Positions 25,444-34,692 of a DNA stretch of 34,692 nt are shown piece by piece (the first letter of the stretch is position 1; each line of letters starts with the position of its first letter). Below the pieces are notes generated by a model. That model was not told the DNA's origin. It was given only the letters and a program-made list of their open reading frames with translations, and did not search any database. Source of the stretch: Caldithrix abyssi (GTDB taxonomy: Bacteria; Calditrichota; Calditrichia; Calditrichales; Calditrichaceae); assembly GCA_011369465.1 (NCBI GenBank), contig DRQG01000060.1, positions 1 through 34,692 of the forward strand, written 5' to 3'. Made by a program: the position numbers and the translations under genes.

Positions 25444-27453
<2,010 letters not shown>

Positions 27454-27589: not shown

Positions 27590-27625
27590 TTGAATGCGGG
27601 CGGTTAATTTATTAAAATGCAATTA
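27590..27625 (+). promoter_or_regulatory. Promoter of the lipoprotein pair
   Basis: TTGAAT (27590-27595) and TAAAAT (27613-27618) are separated by exactly 17 bases; the -10 matches consensus at five of six positions. Transcription would start near 27625. This places the first in-frame ATG (27617) inside the -10 box and supports translation from the ATG at 27638. The region between this promoter and that of ligA is the divergence point of the window. Confidence 0.55.
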
Positions 27626-27637
27626 ATGTGGATTTAC

Positions 27638-28267
27638 ATGAAACACATAAGAAAAATAGTTTTTCTATCGATCTTAACCTTTACGTATTGTACAAATCCG
27701 TTCAGCGTTCGCGACGTCGAGGAACCGGGGTTTGGATCCGATTGGGTGCGTTATGCTCCGGCTACTTCGCCGGACAGCGTGATGTATAATTTTCGGCTGG
27801 CCATAGCCAATAAAAATGTAGAAGAATATATGAGGACATTTGTTGACCCCTTGAAAGCCGACGCCCATCAATATCGTTTTGTTCCCGATCCGTATTACAC
27901 CAACGATTTTCCTACCGCCTGGACATTGGATGATGAGCGTAACTTTTTCAGTCAGTTAGTGCAATCGGATAAACAAGACTACCCAAAACTACGGCTCGAT
28001 TTTTTAACCCCGCTGGTTTTAACCGGAATCACACCGATTTCTGTGGACGATTCCGTTGAAAGCAATAACCTGGAATATACCCTTCAGGTTGATTACGGTG
28101 ATTCATCGGAAGTTTATACAGGCATTGCTCGTTTCAAACTGTACCATTCCAAATCGGCACCGCCGGAGACCTGGCACATATATTACTGGCAGGATAACGC
28201 TGTGGAACAAAACCATGATAAAACATGGACATATTTAAAACGTTTCATCTTTAACCCGTCGTTCTGA
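27638..28267 (+). CDS. Hypothetical lipoprotein, first of a tandem pair
   Basis: From the ATG at 27638 the protein has 209 residues; an ATG at 27617 is in frame but lies within the proposed -10 box. Residues 1-18 form a lipoprotein signal peptide with lipobox FTYC and C18, followed by TNPF. The mature part has a predicted alpha-beta layout (SVMYNFRLAIANKNVEEYMRTF) resembling NTF2/SnoaL-like lipoproteins, but no family is certain. There are no catalytic motifs. It overlaps the next lipoprotein gene by one base (TGATG), so both should be made in fixed proportion. It is presumably attached to a membrane facing the periplasm. Confidence 0.8.
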   Translation: MKHIRKIVFLSILTFTYCTNPFSVRDVEEPGFGSDWVRYAPATSPDSVMYNFRLAIANKNVEEYMRTFVDPLKADAHQYRFVPDPYYTNDFPTAWTLDDERNFFSQLVQSDKQDYPKLRLDFLTPLVLTGITPISVDDSVESNNLEYTLQVDYGDSSEVYTGIARFKLYHSKSAPPETWHIYYWQDNAVEQNHDKTWTYLKRFIFNPSF

Positions 28268-28806
28268 TGAAAACCATACTTCTACATTCTCTTTTTTTAC
28301 TGGTTTTTGTGGCTTTACTGCTGGAAGGATGCGTAAATCCGTTTGCCCCCGCGCTTACGGAGGCCGGGGGGAGTCACGAACTTATTTTAAGCGAGCAGGA
28401 TACGCCGGAAGGCGTCTTTGTCAATTTCAGCTATTCATACAATTTTAAGGATTCGCTGGTGTACAGCGATTTACTGGACAGCACGTTTCTGTTTATTTCA
28501 AAAAATTACGCCACAACACCCGTAACGGACTTAACCTGGGGCCGCGACGTGGATATCAAAACCACCGTTGGGCTGTTCCGGCATTTTCAGACCTTAAATT
28601 TAAAATGGGAAGCCACCATTTTTGAACGTTTTTTGGGAACGGACAGCAGCCGCAAAGAAATAAAAAAACGGTTTCAACTCACCTTTGACGGCGGACAGGA
28701 AATTCCCACCATCAATGGTGATGCCTTATTCATTTTAAAGAAAAAAACGCGTAACAAAAAACCCTTCTGGCAGATTACCCGCTGGGAAGATTTGTCCACA
28801 TTTTAG
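28267..28806 (+). CDS. Hypothetical lipoprotein, second of a tandem pair
   Basis: This 179-residue protein has a lipoprotein signal peptide, lipobox LEGC with C22, followed by VNPF, the same NPF motif as in its neighbour. The mature chain is rich in beta-prone stretches (VFVNFSYSYNFKDSLVYSDLL, FLFISK) and ends in RNKKPFWQITRWED. The family is not recognised and no catalytic site is visible. Its start codon overlaps the stop of the first lipoprotein gene. The shared NPF motif and size suggest that the two proteins are distant relatives or partners. A 100-base AT-rich spacer separates it from the PdxJ-like gene. Confidence 0.82.
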   Translation: MKTILLHSLFLLVFVALLLEGCVNPFAPALTEAGGSHELILSEQDTPEGVFVNFSYSYNFKDSLVYSDLLDSTFLFISKNYATTPVTDLTWGRDVDIKTTVGLFRHFQTLNLKWEATIFERFLGTDSSRKEIKKRFQLTFDGGQEIPTINGDALFILKKKTRNKKPFWQITRWEDLSTF

Positions 28807-28906: not shown

Positions 28907-29617
28907 ATGCATCGTTTTGCGCTCGATATTGATCCGGTTAGCTATGTACGAAATATGCTGGGTGGCGACACTCCTGATCCGGTACAGGCTGTTGTTTTGG
29001 CGGAATTAGGTGGAGCGGAAAGTATTGTGTGCTATTTGCGCGATGACCTGACCACAACCAGCGAAAGAGACCTGGCTCTTTACCGTCAGATCGTAAAAAC
29101 CTACCTCAATGTCCGCTCCAATATCACAGAAGAAAACATCCGTAAATTATTACGGGTAAAACCGGATATGATCACCTTTGTAACCCCGGCAGAGGTATCT
29201 GTGGTGGAACCCAACCCTTTGAATGTGGAGTTATATGAAAATCAATTACAAAACTATATTCCCGAATTGCGCTCAAACAATATTTTGAGCTCTGTTTTAA
29301 TCGACGCGGATATAGCCAAAGTAAAATTAGCCGGTAAATTGGAATTCGATTACATCGAAATTGACGCTACACCGCTAAGCGAAGCGCCGGATATGGATAC
29401 CGAGATGCAGTTTCTGAATCAAATTGAAGAAATCGCTATGGCAGCCAATAAGCTGGGTATGGGCGTCAACGTTTCCGGTAAAATCGGCTACGAAAATATC
29501 CGCGACATAGCCAATATCGCCTATTTGGAAGATATCGTTGTGGGTAAGCCTGTGCTCATACGTGCATTGGCCATCGGCTTTGAACAAGCCGTACGCGACA
29601 TTCTTACGTTGCTTTAA
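28907..29617 (+). CDS. PdxJ-like protein lacking the catalytic histidines
   Basis: The 236-residue chain aligns along its length with pyridoxine 5'-phosphate synthase (PdxJ, about 243 residues), a TIM barrel of vitamin B6 synthesis. The scaffold is conserved: PDPVQA at 23-28, AELGGAESIVCYLRDD, VLIDAD, and YENIRDIANI near the end. The active site is not: NIDH reads DIDP (His to P10), VHLREDRRHI reads CYLRDDLTTT (both His lost), NLEM reads NVRS (Glu to R70), NAGHG reads NVSGK, and NIGH reads VVGK. It is probably not a working PdxJ. It may bind a phosphate ligand or have another role. A GGGAGG ribosome binding site precedes the ATG. The downstream GH2-like gene starts 34 bases later. Confidence 0.8.
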   Translation: MHRFALDIDPVSYVRNMLGGDTPDPVQAVVLAELGGAESIVCYLRDDLTTTSERDLALYRQIVKTYLNVRSNITEENIRKLLRVKPDMITFVTPAEVSVVEPNPLNVELYENQLQNYIPELRSNNILSSVLIDADIAKVKLAGKLEFDYIEIDATPLSEAPDMDTEMQFLNQIEEIAMAANKLGMGVNVSGKIGYENIRDIANIAYLEDIVVGKPVLIRALAIGFEQAVRDILTLL

Positions 29618-29651: not shown

Positions 29652-32195
29652 ATGCTTAATAACCGGAACGGTTTCATGCTCCATTGGGTAGGGCTGTTTT
29701 TAATCTGGCTGTTTCTACCTGTCAATGCAGTTAAGGCGCAGGACTCCGGCCTACCTGTATTGGTTCATTTTGAATCCGGGGCAACTCCCCCACCCTCTTA
29801 CTTACCTCTGAATATAAAACAAATTAAAGTGCAAGACTGGCAGGTCGAAACGGCTCCGGAACACTGGCGTTCCATTCGGCTGCCGTTTTATACGGAATAT
29901 CCCCGGCCCAAAATTCACCTTAAGGGTCGATTCCTTTATAAAAACAGCGCACACGATTCCCGGCTGATTCTGTACAGCGGCGGGATACACGGATTTGCCG
30001 AAATAAAAATCAACGGTTCGCTGATTGCTCAACAGAATTTTAACTATCTTCCTTTTGAAATTGCCATTAACAAAGATGCTCTGACCGAGGGCGTCAATGA
30101 GATTGAAATACATTTACGGGCTCCGGAAAAATTAGAAGAAGGATTTCCTGTTTTGCCCAAAATATATGCGGAGCAGCGCGTTTTCGGTCTTTTGCGACCG
30201 CTCTTTTTTTACCCCCAATCAACCGCTTCTCTCTCCGGGCTTAAGGTGAGGTTGCAAAATTTTGCCGGGTCCAAAGCCGAAATAGCCTACCGTTACCGTT
30301 TCGACCTTCCTGCTGAGGTTAAAGCAAAAGCCAAACTAATTAAGGCGGAAGAATGGTTTCTTAACGAAAACAACAAAGTAGTTTTTCACAGCATTAAGTT
30401 TATACCGGCAGGTCGGAATTTTCGTGAAAATACCTTTTCGCTGGATACAAGTTATGTATGGTCTGTTCAAAGACCTGTACGTCTTAAACTGAAAATTGTT
30501 CTAAGCACGGATCGATCTGCTCTGTTGTCTCAAACTTATCGGATTGCAGCACGAACAGTTCAATATCGCAACAACGCATTGCATCTGAACGGTCAACGGC
30601 TCACTATTCGTGGTGTGAATTATCACCAAAATATCGGTTCTTACCGCAATAAGGGCTATTATGATATGGTAAAGGCCGATTTTTCCGCATTGAAAGAGGC
30701 CGGATTTAACGCCGTGCGTTTTCCACATTATCTACCCGACCCTTCATCGGTAGGAATAGCGGATTCGCTTGGATTGCTGTTATTTTGCGAAATACCCGTA
30801 TGGCAATACCCGGCTGCGTTATTATCTGAGCCTGCCGTCCAAAAACAAATGAAAAACATTCTTTTAAATTTTGAACGGTATTATGGTTTAAGTCCCGCCG
30901 TTACCGCTTTTTCTTTGGGCCAGGAACTTCCGCTGCATAAGAGCCGCATATTGCGCCGGTTTATTGTGCTTCACAGTCTGGCTAAGGAGAATATCTCCGT
31001 ACCTACCTATCTTTCACCGATTCCAGACCGTGAATTACCGTTGCGGGAGGCCAGCGATTTTTATATTTATGATGCTTATCATCCCATTCTGACCGAAAGC
31101 AAATTCTTTTTACAACACAAACTGTTCAACCTGATTGGAAAACTTGGTGTTCTCTACTCTCCCGCATTTCTTAATGCCGCAGAAGAAGCAAATTCTGATA
31201 TGCGTATGAGGATGCTTCGTTCTGAAGTTGGTTTATTAAATGAGATACCCAATTTACAGGGGGGCTTTATCCAGAGCTTTAATGACTGGAAACCGGTACG
31301 TTCCAGCTTAATTACCAAAATAACCGATTCCGGAGCCATCATGCCCGACGGTTTATTTACTTACGGGCATCGCGCCAAATACCGTATAAATGAATTGCGG
31401 GATATATGGAAGACGAAAGACAGCATTATTACAAAGGAAAAGAGGATGCGCTCCAACTTTTTCTCGATTGCGGTGTTTTTTGCCTCAATCGTCTTTTTTC
31501 TTATGTACAGACGAAGGAGACGGCTAAGTGATAATATTAAACGTTCGCTTCGGCATCCTTACGGATTTTACATAGATTTACGTGAACGCCGCACCATACC
31601 GGTGTATGATTCTTTTATATTGGGCATCTTCATTTCATTTATTTTAGCGATTACCGTATCGTCGATTGTGTATTATTACCATTTTACCGGTACCTTTCAG
31701 GAAATATGCGCCGTTTTGTTTGTTAATTCGAGGATATATGAGACCGTTTTGTCTGTTTGTAATACGCCTTATCAGCTTGTAATTGTATTTTTTATACCCA
31801 TTCTCATTTTTCCGTTTGCTCTAAGTCTGATACTTAAAACCGTTTCCTTATTTACGCACACATCCATACGGATTCGCCAGTTTTTGGCCATAAGCTACTG
31901 GTCGGGTTCGCCTTTGCTCTTTATGATCCCTCTGGCGCTTATTGCCTACCATTGGCTGGTTTATCTGGATATGAAGATATATCTTTTGGTTTTTGTTGCG
32001 GTATTTATTATTTGGATTAACTGGCGTCTTATTTATAGCATCCGTATCTTTTTTCACGGTAAATCTTTTACTATTTTGCTCGTATTGCTATTGTCTTACA
32101 CAGTTCCTTTCCTTATCTTAGGAGCTGTTTTTAAACCATTTCCCTATTGGTTCAATTATCTGATATTTCTGGCTGAAATGCACAGTTTGTATTAA
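29652..32195 (+). CDS. GH2-like secreted domain fused to a multi-helix membrane domain
   Basis: From the ATG at 29652 the protein has 847 residues; another ATG at 29676 is possible, and neither has a strong ribosome binding site. It begins with a signal peptide (VGLFLIWLFLPVNAVKA). A jelly-roll and Ig-like part (about 40-330) leads into a GH2-type TIM barrel: RGVNYHQ, LKEAGFNAVRFPHYL, SLGQE with E425 at the acid/base position, and GGFIQSFNDW at 537-546. Typical GH2 enzymes have SLGNE and a nucleophile Glu in a kPxxxSEyG strand; here that strand reads GKLGVLYSPAFL with no Glu. After about residue 610 come one helix, a cytoplasmic basic loop and four or five further helices resembling Yip1-type domains. 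It is likely inactive or altered as a glycosidase. Confidence 0.72.
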   Translation: MLNNRNGFMLHWVGLFLIWLFLPVNAVKAQDSGLPVLVHFESGATPPPSYLPLNIKQIKVQDWQVETAPEHWRSIRLPFYTEYPRPKIHLKGRFLYKNSAHDSRLILYSGGIHGFAEIKINGSLIAQQNFNYLPFEIAINKDALTEGVNEIEIHLRAPEKLEEGFPVLPKIYAEQRVFGLLRPLFFYPQSTASLSGLKVRLQNFAGSKAEIAYRYRFDLPAEVKAKAKLIKAEEWFLNENNKVVFHSIKFIPAGRNFRENTFSLDTSYVWSVQRPVRLKLKIVLSTDRSALLSQTYRIAARTVQYRNNALHLNGQRLTIRGVNYHQNIGSYRNKGYYDMVKADFSALKEAGFNAVRFPHYLPDPSSVGIADSLGLLLFCEIPVWQYPAALLSEPAVQKQMKNILLNFERYYGLSPAVTAFSLGQELPLHKSRILRRFIVLHSLAKENISVPTYLSPIPDRELPLREASDFYIYDAYHPILTESKFFLQHKLFNLIGKLGVLYSPAFLNAAEEANSDMRMRMLRSEVGLLNEIPNLQGGFIQSFNDWKPVRSSLITKITDSGAIMPDGLFTYGHRAKYRINELRDIWKTKDSIITKEKRMRSNFFSIAVFFASIVFFLMYRRRRRLSDNIKRSLRHPYGFYIDLRERRTIPVYDSFILGIFISFILAITVSSIVYYYHFTGTFQEICAVLFVNSRIYETVLSVCNTPYQLVIVFFIPILIFPFALSLILKTVSLFTHTSIRIRQFLAISYWSGSPLLFMIPLALIAYHWLVYLDMKIYLLVFVAVFIIWINWRLIYSIRIFFHGKSFTILLVLLLSYTVPFLILGAVFKPFPYWFNYLIFLAEMHSLY

Positions 32196-32255: not shown

Positions 32256-34692
32256 ATGTACTTATCCCGTTTACAGCTTATTGGTTTTAAATCTTTTGCT
32301 CACAAAACAAAGCTCGATTTTAACGAAGGCCTTTCCTGTATAATCGGTCCTAACGGCTCCGGTAAATCCAATATTGTTGACGCCGTACGTTGGGTACTTG
32401 GCGAACAACGTGTTTCTTCCCTGAGAAGCGATAAAATGGAAAACGTGATTTTTAGCGGTACGCGTACACGTAAACCCATGGGGATGACCGAAGTCTCAAT
32501 GACCATTCAGAATAATAAAAATATCCTTAAAACCGAATTTGAAGAAGTGGTTATTTCGCGCCGTTTGTACCGTTCGGGCGAGAGCCAGTATCTGATCAAC
32601 AAAACGCCTGTTCGTCTAAAAGACATTCAGGATATATTTATGGATACCGGTATGGGCGCCAATTCCTATTCGGTAATCGAATTAAAAATGGTGGAAAGCA
32701 TTTTAAGCGAAAATAAGCAGGAACGGCGCTTATTGCTGGACGAAGCCGCAGGCGTTGTTAAATACAAGGTGCGCCGTAAATCGGCCTTACGCAAACTGGA
32801 AGCTACCCGCCTTGATTTAAACCGTATTAACGATATTATCAGCGAAGTGGATAAGGTGGTGCGTTCGCTATCCAGACAGGTTGGCAAAGCCAGACGCTAC
32901 ATCGAATATACCGACGAGCTTAAAAAACTGGAAATCGGCCTGGCGCGATTCCGATACCATCGCTATCTGGAAGATATTCAACCCCTTCAGGCACAGTTGA
33001 AGGAATTAAGCAAGATAAAGGAAGAAAGTCATCATCAGATTACCATTGACGAAGCGCTGCTGGAAGATTACAAACGCGAAATAATCCAGATTGAACAGGA
33101 TTTACAAAAAATAAACGCCGAATTACATCAACAGGACAGCCGCGTGGCGCAAATTAACCAGGAAGAAGCGGTGGCCCGTACCAAACTGGAAGAAATGGAG
33201 AAAACAAAACAGCGTTTTGCGCAAGAAATCGCTGAATACGAACAGAAGATTTCCCTGTTACAAACAAACCTGACCGAATACGAGGCCGAACTCACTCAGC
33301 TGAATGAGCAGGCCGAATTAGCTCAGGAAGAATATCGTCGCATTGCCGCAGAACGCAATGATGAACTTGAACAAATCCAAAAAGAAAAACACGAGATCGA
33401 TCAACTTAATGATACTTTCCGCAAACAACTTCAAATACTTACCGGGGAAAAAGATAAACTAAAACAGAGCGAATTAAAAGCCGGATTTTTAATTGATCAA
33501 AAGACCGAAATTCAAAAGGAAATCGAACGCTCCGGAGATACCTTTAAGGAATTGCAGGACAGATTATCAACTCAGCAAAAACTCAGACAGGAAAAAGCCC
33601 GCCTTCAGACCGAACTGCAAGATAATATAACGCAACTCGAAAAGCGGATAGAAGAACAAAAAGAAAGCATCGCTGCCACGCAGGAAGAAAAAAATAAAAT
33701 CATAAACGAGTTAGAACGGCTAAATTCCCGTTTGAACTTTCTCAATCAAATCATTTCCAGCTATGAAGGACACAGCAGCAGCACCCAATTTGCCATGCAG
33801 CAAAAAGACCGACTGAAAGGTATTCACGGCACAGTGGCGGAAATCATTTCAGCCGACCCGGAAGCTTCAGGACTAATTGAAATTATTTTAAGCGATGCTT
33901 TAAACTATATCATCGTATCCGATGTGCCTACTGCCCGCGAATTGATCGAAATCGTTCGTAAAGAGAATAAAGGGCGCATTACTTTGGTGCCATTGGATCG
34001 TTTAAAGACCCTGTCTGTTCCCGACCCGGTCTATCCTGACGGTATAGATCCGCTGATCAGGCATATCAAAACAGATCAACAATATCAGCCGCTGCTGCGG
34101 TTGTTACTGGGTGACGTCGTGATAACGGACGATCTCGACACCGCACTGCGCCAATCGGAAAAATATCCCGAATTTCGTTTCATTACACGAAACGGCCATA
34201 CACTGGCCGGTCAACAACGCATTTCCGGTGGATCGGTCAAGAAAAAAGAATACTCTCTTATCGGCCGGAAAGATCAGCTGCGTCAGATTGAACAGGCCAT
34301 CCGGGATAAGCAAAATACGCTGAACAAGGTATCCTCCACCCTTACCGAATACAATGCGCTTCTGCAAAAGAGCGAAAAAGGACTTACAGAATTGCGGGAG
34401 CGGGTAAAAGTAACCCGAGAAGAGTTTTTCAAAACAGAGGCGATTGAGAACCAGTTAAAATACGAAATCGAACAACATGAAAGAAGTAAAGCGGAACAGC
34501 GTAACCAGATAAAAACGATCGAACAGAATTTAAAGGCGTTGAATGAAGAAATAAAGAAATTACGGGCGGAAGTGGAAACCAAACAGTCCGAACTAAACAA
34601 ACTGGAAAGCGAAACAATCCGCCGCACCGGAGAATTTGAGCGGAAAAACGAGATTCTGCAAAACATGACCGATGAAGTGCAGCAAGCGCAGC
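32256..34692 (+). CDS. smc: Chromosome segregation protein Smc, C-terminal part beyond the window
   Basis: The first 812 residues are visible. Walker A GPNGSGKS is at 31-38 in the N-terminal head, followed by VRWVLGEQ. The head also contains DTGMGANSYSVIELKMVESI and DEAAGVVKYKVRRK. The SYSVIEL form replaces the usual IGQG and resembles Bacteroidota Smc proteins. A long coiled coil (about 170-500) leads to the hinge domain (about 519-660, with GIHGTVAEI, DALNYIIVSD and RISGGSV), then the returning coiled coil runs to the window edge. The ABC signature and Walker B lie beyond it. Smc forms the ring-shaped condensin that organises and segregates the chromosome. A GGAG motif is placed four bases before the ATG. 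The reverse-strand frames over it are shadows. Confidence 0.95.
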   Translation, partial: MYLSRLQLIGFKSFAHKTKLDFNEGLSCIIGPNGSGKSNIVDAVRWVLGEQRVSSLRSDKMENVIFSGTRTRKPMGMTEVSMTIQNNKNILKTEFEEVVISRRLYRSGESQYLINKTPVRLKDIQDIFMDTGMGANSYSVIELKMVESILSENKQERRLLLDEAAGVVKYKVRRKSALRKLEATRLDLNRINDIISEVDKVVRSLSRQVGKARRYIEYTDELKKLEIGLARFRYHRYLEDIQPLQAQLKELSKIKEESHHQITIDEALLEDYKREIIQIEQDLQKINAELHQQDSRVAQINQEEAVARTKLEEMEKTKQRFAQEIAEYEQKISLLQTNLTEYEAELTQLNEQAELAQEEYRRIAAERNDELEQIQKEKHEIDQLNDTFRKQLQILTGEKDKLKQSELKAGFLIDQKTEIQKEIERSGDTFKELQDRLSTQQKLRQEKARLQTELQDNITQLEKRIEEQKESIAATQEEKNKIINELERLNSRLNFLNQIISSYEGHSSSTQFAMQQKDRLKGIHGTVAEIISADPEASGLIEIILSDALNYIIVSDVPTARELIEIVRKENKGRITLVPLDRLKTLSVPDPVYPDGIDPLIRHIKTDQQYQPLLRLLLGDVVITDDLDTALRQSEKYPEFRFITRNGHTLAGQQRISGGSVKKKEYSLIGRKDQLRQIEQAIRDKQNTLNKVSSTLTEYNALLQKSEKGLTELRERVKVTREEFFKTEAIENQLKYEIEQHERSKAEQRNQIKTIEQNLKALNEEIKKLRAEVETKQSELNKLESETIRRTGEFERKNEILQNMTDEVQQAQ

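Follow-up and report, generated by a model that had tools for sequence, protein, structure and literature searches.

Genes at the locus

The window, i.e., the whole stretch of 34,692 nucleotides that was analyzed, contains an ORF for a PdxJ-like protein, preceded by two lipoprotein genes and followed by a gene for a GH2-like membrane protein (Table 1). The coordinates of the ORF were verified (ATG at 28907, stop at 29617), and a Shine-Dalgarno-like GGAGG is located just 5′ of it. PF03740 covers the protein end to end (residues 4–235, 180.6 bits, 3.4e-53), E. coli PdxJ matches it end to end as well (phmmer, 4e-27), and the closest solved structures are PdxJ without exception. The two full-length matches bear out the first-pass annotation, which had recognized signatures of the PdxJ fold. 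The protein falls below all NCBIfam PdxJ equivalog cut-offs (top score of 152 bits vs. 190; TIGR00559, 126.9 vs. 192.75). An AlphaFold2 model based on an alignment of the window protein and two loci reached a pLDDT of 40 and a pTM of 0.34. In the following, the disarmed form of PdxJ is named PdxJ*.

Table 1. Genes in and around the PdxJ* cluster of the window
Gene	Position	Strand	Remarks
LigA (NAD-dependent DNA ligase)	25444..27441	-	divergent neighbor in most Calditrichota families
Lipoprotein A (LpA)	27617..28267	+	lipobox LTFTYC, no Pfam match; likelier start 27638
Lipoprotein B (LpB)	28267..28806	+	paralogue of A; overlaps the stop codon of A by one base
PdxJ*	28907..29617	+	PdxJ fold without PNP-synthase catalytic residues; 236 aa; PF03740 match and alignment
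GH2-like membrane protein (GH2m)	29652..32195	+	GH2 TIM barrel matched in part; membrane segments at the C-terminus
SMC chromosome-segregation protein	32256..34692	+	continues beyond the window; found downstream in f1–f3

Lipoprotein A is the first gene of a conserved lipoprotein-lipoprotein-PdxJ* cluster, and the order LigA (reverse strand), LpA, LpB, PdxJ* is found across the Calditrichota families f1–f6; the genes for the GH2-like membrane protein and SMC follow PdxJ* in f1–f3 only. In the phylum of genome G084, the order is lipoprotein, YibQ (PF04748) and PdxJ*, with a lipoprotein of the same family as lipoprotein A, and canonical pdxJ genes of that phylum are found in the same order. YibQ or lipoprotein-YibQ also lies 5′ of canonical pdxJ in several other lineages. 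No YibQ was detected beside PdxJ* in Calditrichota or in the f59 group, and the lipoprotein-YibQ cluster was not seen in the phylum of families f59 and f135. The earlier argument that this location is unlike a B6 operon has, consequently, to be dropped, as lipoprotein-(YibQ)-pdxJ is how canonical pdxJ is normally arranged in a related phylum and several other lineages. Since the neighborhood is common to canonical and disarmed pdxJ, this is an inherited pdxJ locus and not a foreign one. The ORF appears to be a pdxJ orthologue by descent; for Calditrichota, this assignment is based on the lipoprotein family that the loci have in common. None of the metabolic genes is associated with PdxJ* across classes.

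Two further observations concern this neighborhood. A pair of uncharacterized, paralogous lipoproteins without Pfam match (27617–28806 in the window) accompanies pdxJ in at least two phyla. Further, HD-domain and DUF4921 proteins recur beside the lipoprotein-YibQ-PdxJ* cluster in the G084 phylum (loci L145–L181).

Lost and retained pocket residues

In a multiple alignment with E. coli PdxJ, every loss of a histidine or glutamate listed in the first-pass annotation turned out to be real (window/E. coli: P10/H12, Y43/H45, T50/H52, R70/E72, G191/H193, K214/H216). Following UniProt for E. coli PdxJ, we take H45, E72 and H193 to be catalytic and the other listed positions to be substrate-binding. 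Additional losses in the window protein (E. coli numbering) are N9, replaced by D, R20, replaced by L, and T102. Among the binding residues N9, D11, H12, R20, R47, H52, T102, G215 and H216, only D11, R47 and G215 are kept; E153 is retained. The lid-loop signature E96, E100, T102–E104 and G106 is also gone, the lid loop of PdxJ comprising residues 95–105 (PMC10471632). In window numbering, the pocket residues are D7, D9, P10, Y43, R45, T50, R70, E151, S190-G191-K192, G213 and K214.

H45, E72 and H193 are all present in 68 of 69 canonical PdxJ sequences, mostly of other phyla, whereas 69 of 74 disarmed relatives have kept none of the three and five have kept one; chance is, therefore, excluded. 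The lid-loop residues E96, E100, T102, T103, E104 and G106 each occur in less than 20% of the PdxJ* sequences. A glycine somewhere in 192–194 is found in all 74 of them, and G215 in 92%; this glycine motif (192–194, 215), located where strands 7 and 8 end, is the site holding one phosphate in PdxJ. The PdxJ* pocket is not random but has class-specific invariant residues. D9, D11, R72, E153 and G193 are invariant (100%) in the 19 sequences of f1–f3; in class A (f51, f127, f128 and others), C9, N11, D52 and Q153 are invariant, and A72 and R193 nearly so. E72R and H193G with a retained E153 are found in Calditrichota f1–f3, f59, f123 and f125, and position 72 is H or R in f4–f6. The residues staying across classes are A14, R17, P27, G38, D57, N70, P88, G215 and G226.

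One PdxJ (L108, G094:C99) is only partly disarmed, E72 and H216 being kept and the remaining histidines replaced by R or Y. It adjoins YibQ in a genome with PdxS and is possibly an intermediate toward the disarmed form.

B6 genes in Calditrichota

The genome of the window (G000; Calditrichota, 98.5% complete) was searched for a second, canonical pdxJ, a check which the first-pass annotation had called for. None was found, the ORF being the sole PF03740 gene. pdxS and pdxT are adjacent on another contig of this genome (G000:C142, 61736–63168). PdxH, represented by the PNP oxidase C-terminal domain PF10590, is absent from G000 and G001, the latter taken to be Caldithrix abyssi, and from most of Calditrichota. 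A PdxJ-family gene was detected in 35 of 40 Calditrichota genomes, and the catalytic residues are missing in all 35, including G001. A conserved clade with the same substitutions, also asked for earlier, thus exists and is the whole phylum. PdxS is found in 37 of the 40 genomes, and nearly all have a strong PdxT match.

E. coli PdxJ (PNP synthase; PDB 1M5W, 1HO1, 6RG0) and PdxJ* agree in length, in PF03740 and in their end-to-end alignment, and both have the strand-7/8 glycine motif, D11 and E153. However, PdxJ* is without H45, E72, H193, N9, H12, R20, H52, T102, H216 and the lid loop 95–107, remains under every NCBIfam PdxJ equivalog cut-off, and is accompanied by PdxST but not by PdxH. As judged from its sequence, PdxJ* is not a standard PNP synthase.

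PdxA is encoded in f1 and f3 only (at G000:C131:3175–4038 and in 13 other Calditrichota genomes, none with a working PdxJ) and is missing in f2 and f4–f6. PdxJ* occurs in all six families, and a coupling of PdxJ* to PdxA was rejected on this basis. As PdxA in f1 and f3 is found without a working PdxJ, it probably has another role there, similar to PdxA2, a PdxA-family paralogue outside PLP synthesis (PMC9997740). PdxA2 resembles PdxJ* in being a member of a B6-pathway family with another role, which misleads pathway annotation; PdxA2, however, retains catalytic chemistry and PdxJ* does not. In two f3 genomes (G022, G023), PdxA and PdxJ* are found without PdxS, and the only glutaminase match is weak, possibly reflecting either a hole in B6 synthesis or missing contigs.

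PdxJ* and PdxS across phyla

The search also covered about 105 genomes outside Calditrichota. Canonical PdxJ scored about 260–348 bits in this search, with all residues intact, and the few low scorers were disarmed. The G084 phylum (82 genomes) has 38 canonical and 38 disarmed PdxJ, with PdxS detected in 37 of 38 genomes of the disarmed group vs. none of the 38 canonical ones. A third phylum (that of G092) was set as a test of the rule that PdxJ* occurs together with PdxS, with the prediction made beforehand. In this phylum, family f59 is disarmed and f135 is canonical, and the rule held (PdxS in five of six f59 PdxJ* genomes vs. neither of the two canonical f135 genomes). Overall, PdxS is present in 77 of 83 PdxJ* genomes vs. 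one of 100 canonical ones, some of the latter classed by score alone (Fisher 4e-43, a p-value which ignores shared ancestry). The repetition of the split inside two phyla is stronger evidence than this p-value. PdxJ* is retained by one whole phylum and by lineages in at least two others, nearly always together with PdxS/PdxT.

Six PdxJ* genomes, most of them incomplete, are without PdxS (G003, G022, G023, G191, G234, G129). The main exception to the rule is a very divergent disarmed PdxJ (L106, G129:C131), which lies beside glmM and YbbR/CdaA-like genes in such a PdxS-less genome. Conversely, G127 alone combines a PdxJ of canonical score with a full-scoring PdxS and may truly have both B6 routes. 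A scan of viral contigs with the PdxJ* profile found no relatives; tblastn against plasmid and phage records gave PdxJ matches, mostly annotated as PNP synthase and known by this annotation only.

Selection on PdxJ*

In close PdxJ* pairs, dN/dS is 0.03–0.10, which is near the value of canonical PdxJ (about 0.02–0.04). With LigA as a yardstick of conservation, the mean identity of the sequences of the phylum to their counterparts in the window is 59% for PdxJ*, 60.5% for LigA, 58% for LpB, 39% for LpA and 30% for GH2m; the latter is conserved in place in f1–f3, yet fast evolving. At equal YibQ distance, the divergence of PdxJ* is about twice that of canonical PdxJ. Constraint on PdxJ* is, hence, relaxed but strong. 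Of 35 Calditrichota genomes, 33 have an intact gene; of the other two copies, one has an in-frame stop and one is split at contig ends. The former (L013/L042, G008:C30) is the only PdxJ* with an in-frame TAA and represents either a recent pseudogene or a sequencing error.

The first-pass annotation had proposed selection for a new function instead of decay. Selection is supported by dN/dS and by an identity similar to that of LigA. The new function is likely only, since canonical PdxJ may already have had a non-catalytic role, which would agree with the data equally well, and the pocket differs between classes. With its catalytic residues lost and its gene under purifying selection, PdxJ* would be classified as a pseudoenzyme.

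Number of origins

In a PdxJ tree built with the functional columns removed, PdxJ* falls into several well-supported groups in no firm mutual order, and at least two changes are needed. A single PdxJ* origin was not rejected by the AU test (p = 0.325). In the YibQ tree, four changes are needed, without forced support. Convergent origins of PdxJ* are suggested by these trees.

Discussion

PdxJ* is very probably a repurposed protein which is no longer a PNP synthase. The best explanation overall, to which we give an even chance, is an in-place pdxJ orthologue that lost PNP synthesis after PdxST and became a pseudoenzyme binding one ligand. The lineage would have moved PLP synthesis to PdxS/PdxT, and pdxJ would have been kept in place and stripped of its chemistry after this takeover. 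Judging from the residue losses, the two-substrate condensation site would be gone, and the barrel would bind one phosphorylated metabolite, either a B6 vitamer or a sugar phosphate. It would work as a sensor or as a protein partner, perhaps of the envelope proteins whose genes lie alongside. We propose a ligand-binding pseudoenzyme because the condensation site is apparently gone, the glycine motif is kept, and class-invariant charged residues (here D9, D11, R72, E153) line the pocket. Non-catalytic ligand binding as the actual mechanism is put forward tentatively, with slightly less than even confidence. One ligand shared by all classes is at variance with the pocket chemistry, which is R72/G193/E153 in one class vs. 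A72/R193/Q153 in another.

An enzyme would be just as compatible with invariant charged residues in the pocket. PdxJ* could be neofunctionalized, with new catalysis on a single phosphorylated substrate via the class-invariant D/R/E pocket, and the five fully invariant residues in the 19 f1–f3 sequences, the recurrence of E72R/H193G with E153 in f1–f3, f59, f123 and f125, and purifying selection all agree with this. However, the second large class has C9, N11, D52, A72, Q153 and R193 in the same neighborhood, and a linked metabolic gene is missing across classes, which makes a new enzyme rather unlikely. Further, a structural or partner-binding role of canonical PdxJ, independent of the pocket and tied to lipoprotein/YibQ, might alone have survived. 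The neighborhood common to both forms and the constancy of fold and scattered residues despite a pocket varying between classes point in this direction, and YibQ (SddA) of E. coli deacetylates septal peptidoglycan (PMC12440217). Nevertheless, we consider such pure moonlighting improbable, as the residues common to the classes seem to serve the fold, YibQ does not accompany PdxJ* in Calditrichota or the f59 group, and class-invariant pocket residues would be needless.

That PdxJ* is still a PNP synthase with its catalytic residues relocated within the pocket would agree with its membership in PF03740, with the conservation of D11 and E153, and with C. abyssi being scored as having the DXP-dependent route (PMC9997740). 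It is very improbable given the loss of all three catalytic residues, DXP-binding H12, H52 and T102, R20 and the lid loop, the presence of PdxST, the lack of PdxH in most of the phylum and the lack of PdxA in f2 and f4–f6 despite PdxJ*. A decaying leftover on its way to loss is hardly credible: the faster divergence relative to canonical PdxJ and the TAA in G008 (L013) would fit, but low dN/dS, 33 of 35 intact copies and an identity equal to that of LigA contradict it.

No description of a catalytically disarmed PdxJ was found in the open-access library that was searched. PDX1.2 of Arabidopsis is named as a pseudoenzyme of the PdxS family in a citation in PMC6385983 and, as far as this citation goes, resembles PdxJ* as a barrel of B6 synthesis maintained despite loss of key catalytic residues. 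PDX1.2 is, however, a paralogue alongside active PDX1 proteins, whereas PdxJ* is the only PdxJ of its genome, disarmed in place, with no active paralogue in G000.

The DXP-dependent route has been recognized by pdxJ as its signature gene, and C. abyssi is among ten genomes listed with both B6 routes, the DXP-dependent set of which looks incomplete (PMC9997740). Assuming that G001 is C. abyssi, its “PdxJ”, going by its residues, cannot be a standard PNP synthase, and a disarmed PdxJ therefore explains the reported “two pathways”. More generally, pdxJ is undermined as a marker, since the inference drawn from it breaks down in one entire phylum and in parts of at least two more. The disarmed genes represent a natural series in which orthologues, not duplicates, of an essential enzyme were converted in place, and the active form persists in sister families as a control; the fate of an enzyme after its job has been taken over is, therefore, directly testable.

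It is conceivable, although we regard it as unlikely, that diderm lineages swapping B6 pathways repeatedly and independently converted pdxJ in place and gave it one and the same additional role, E72R and H193G being convergent in several phyla. If true, the repeated conversion would show that the PdxJ barrel has a further, hidden function, possibly tied to envelope or septal peptidoglycan proteins, and canonical PdxJ may also carry this function.
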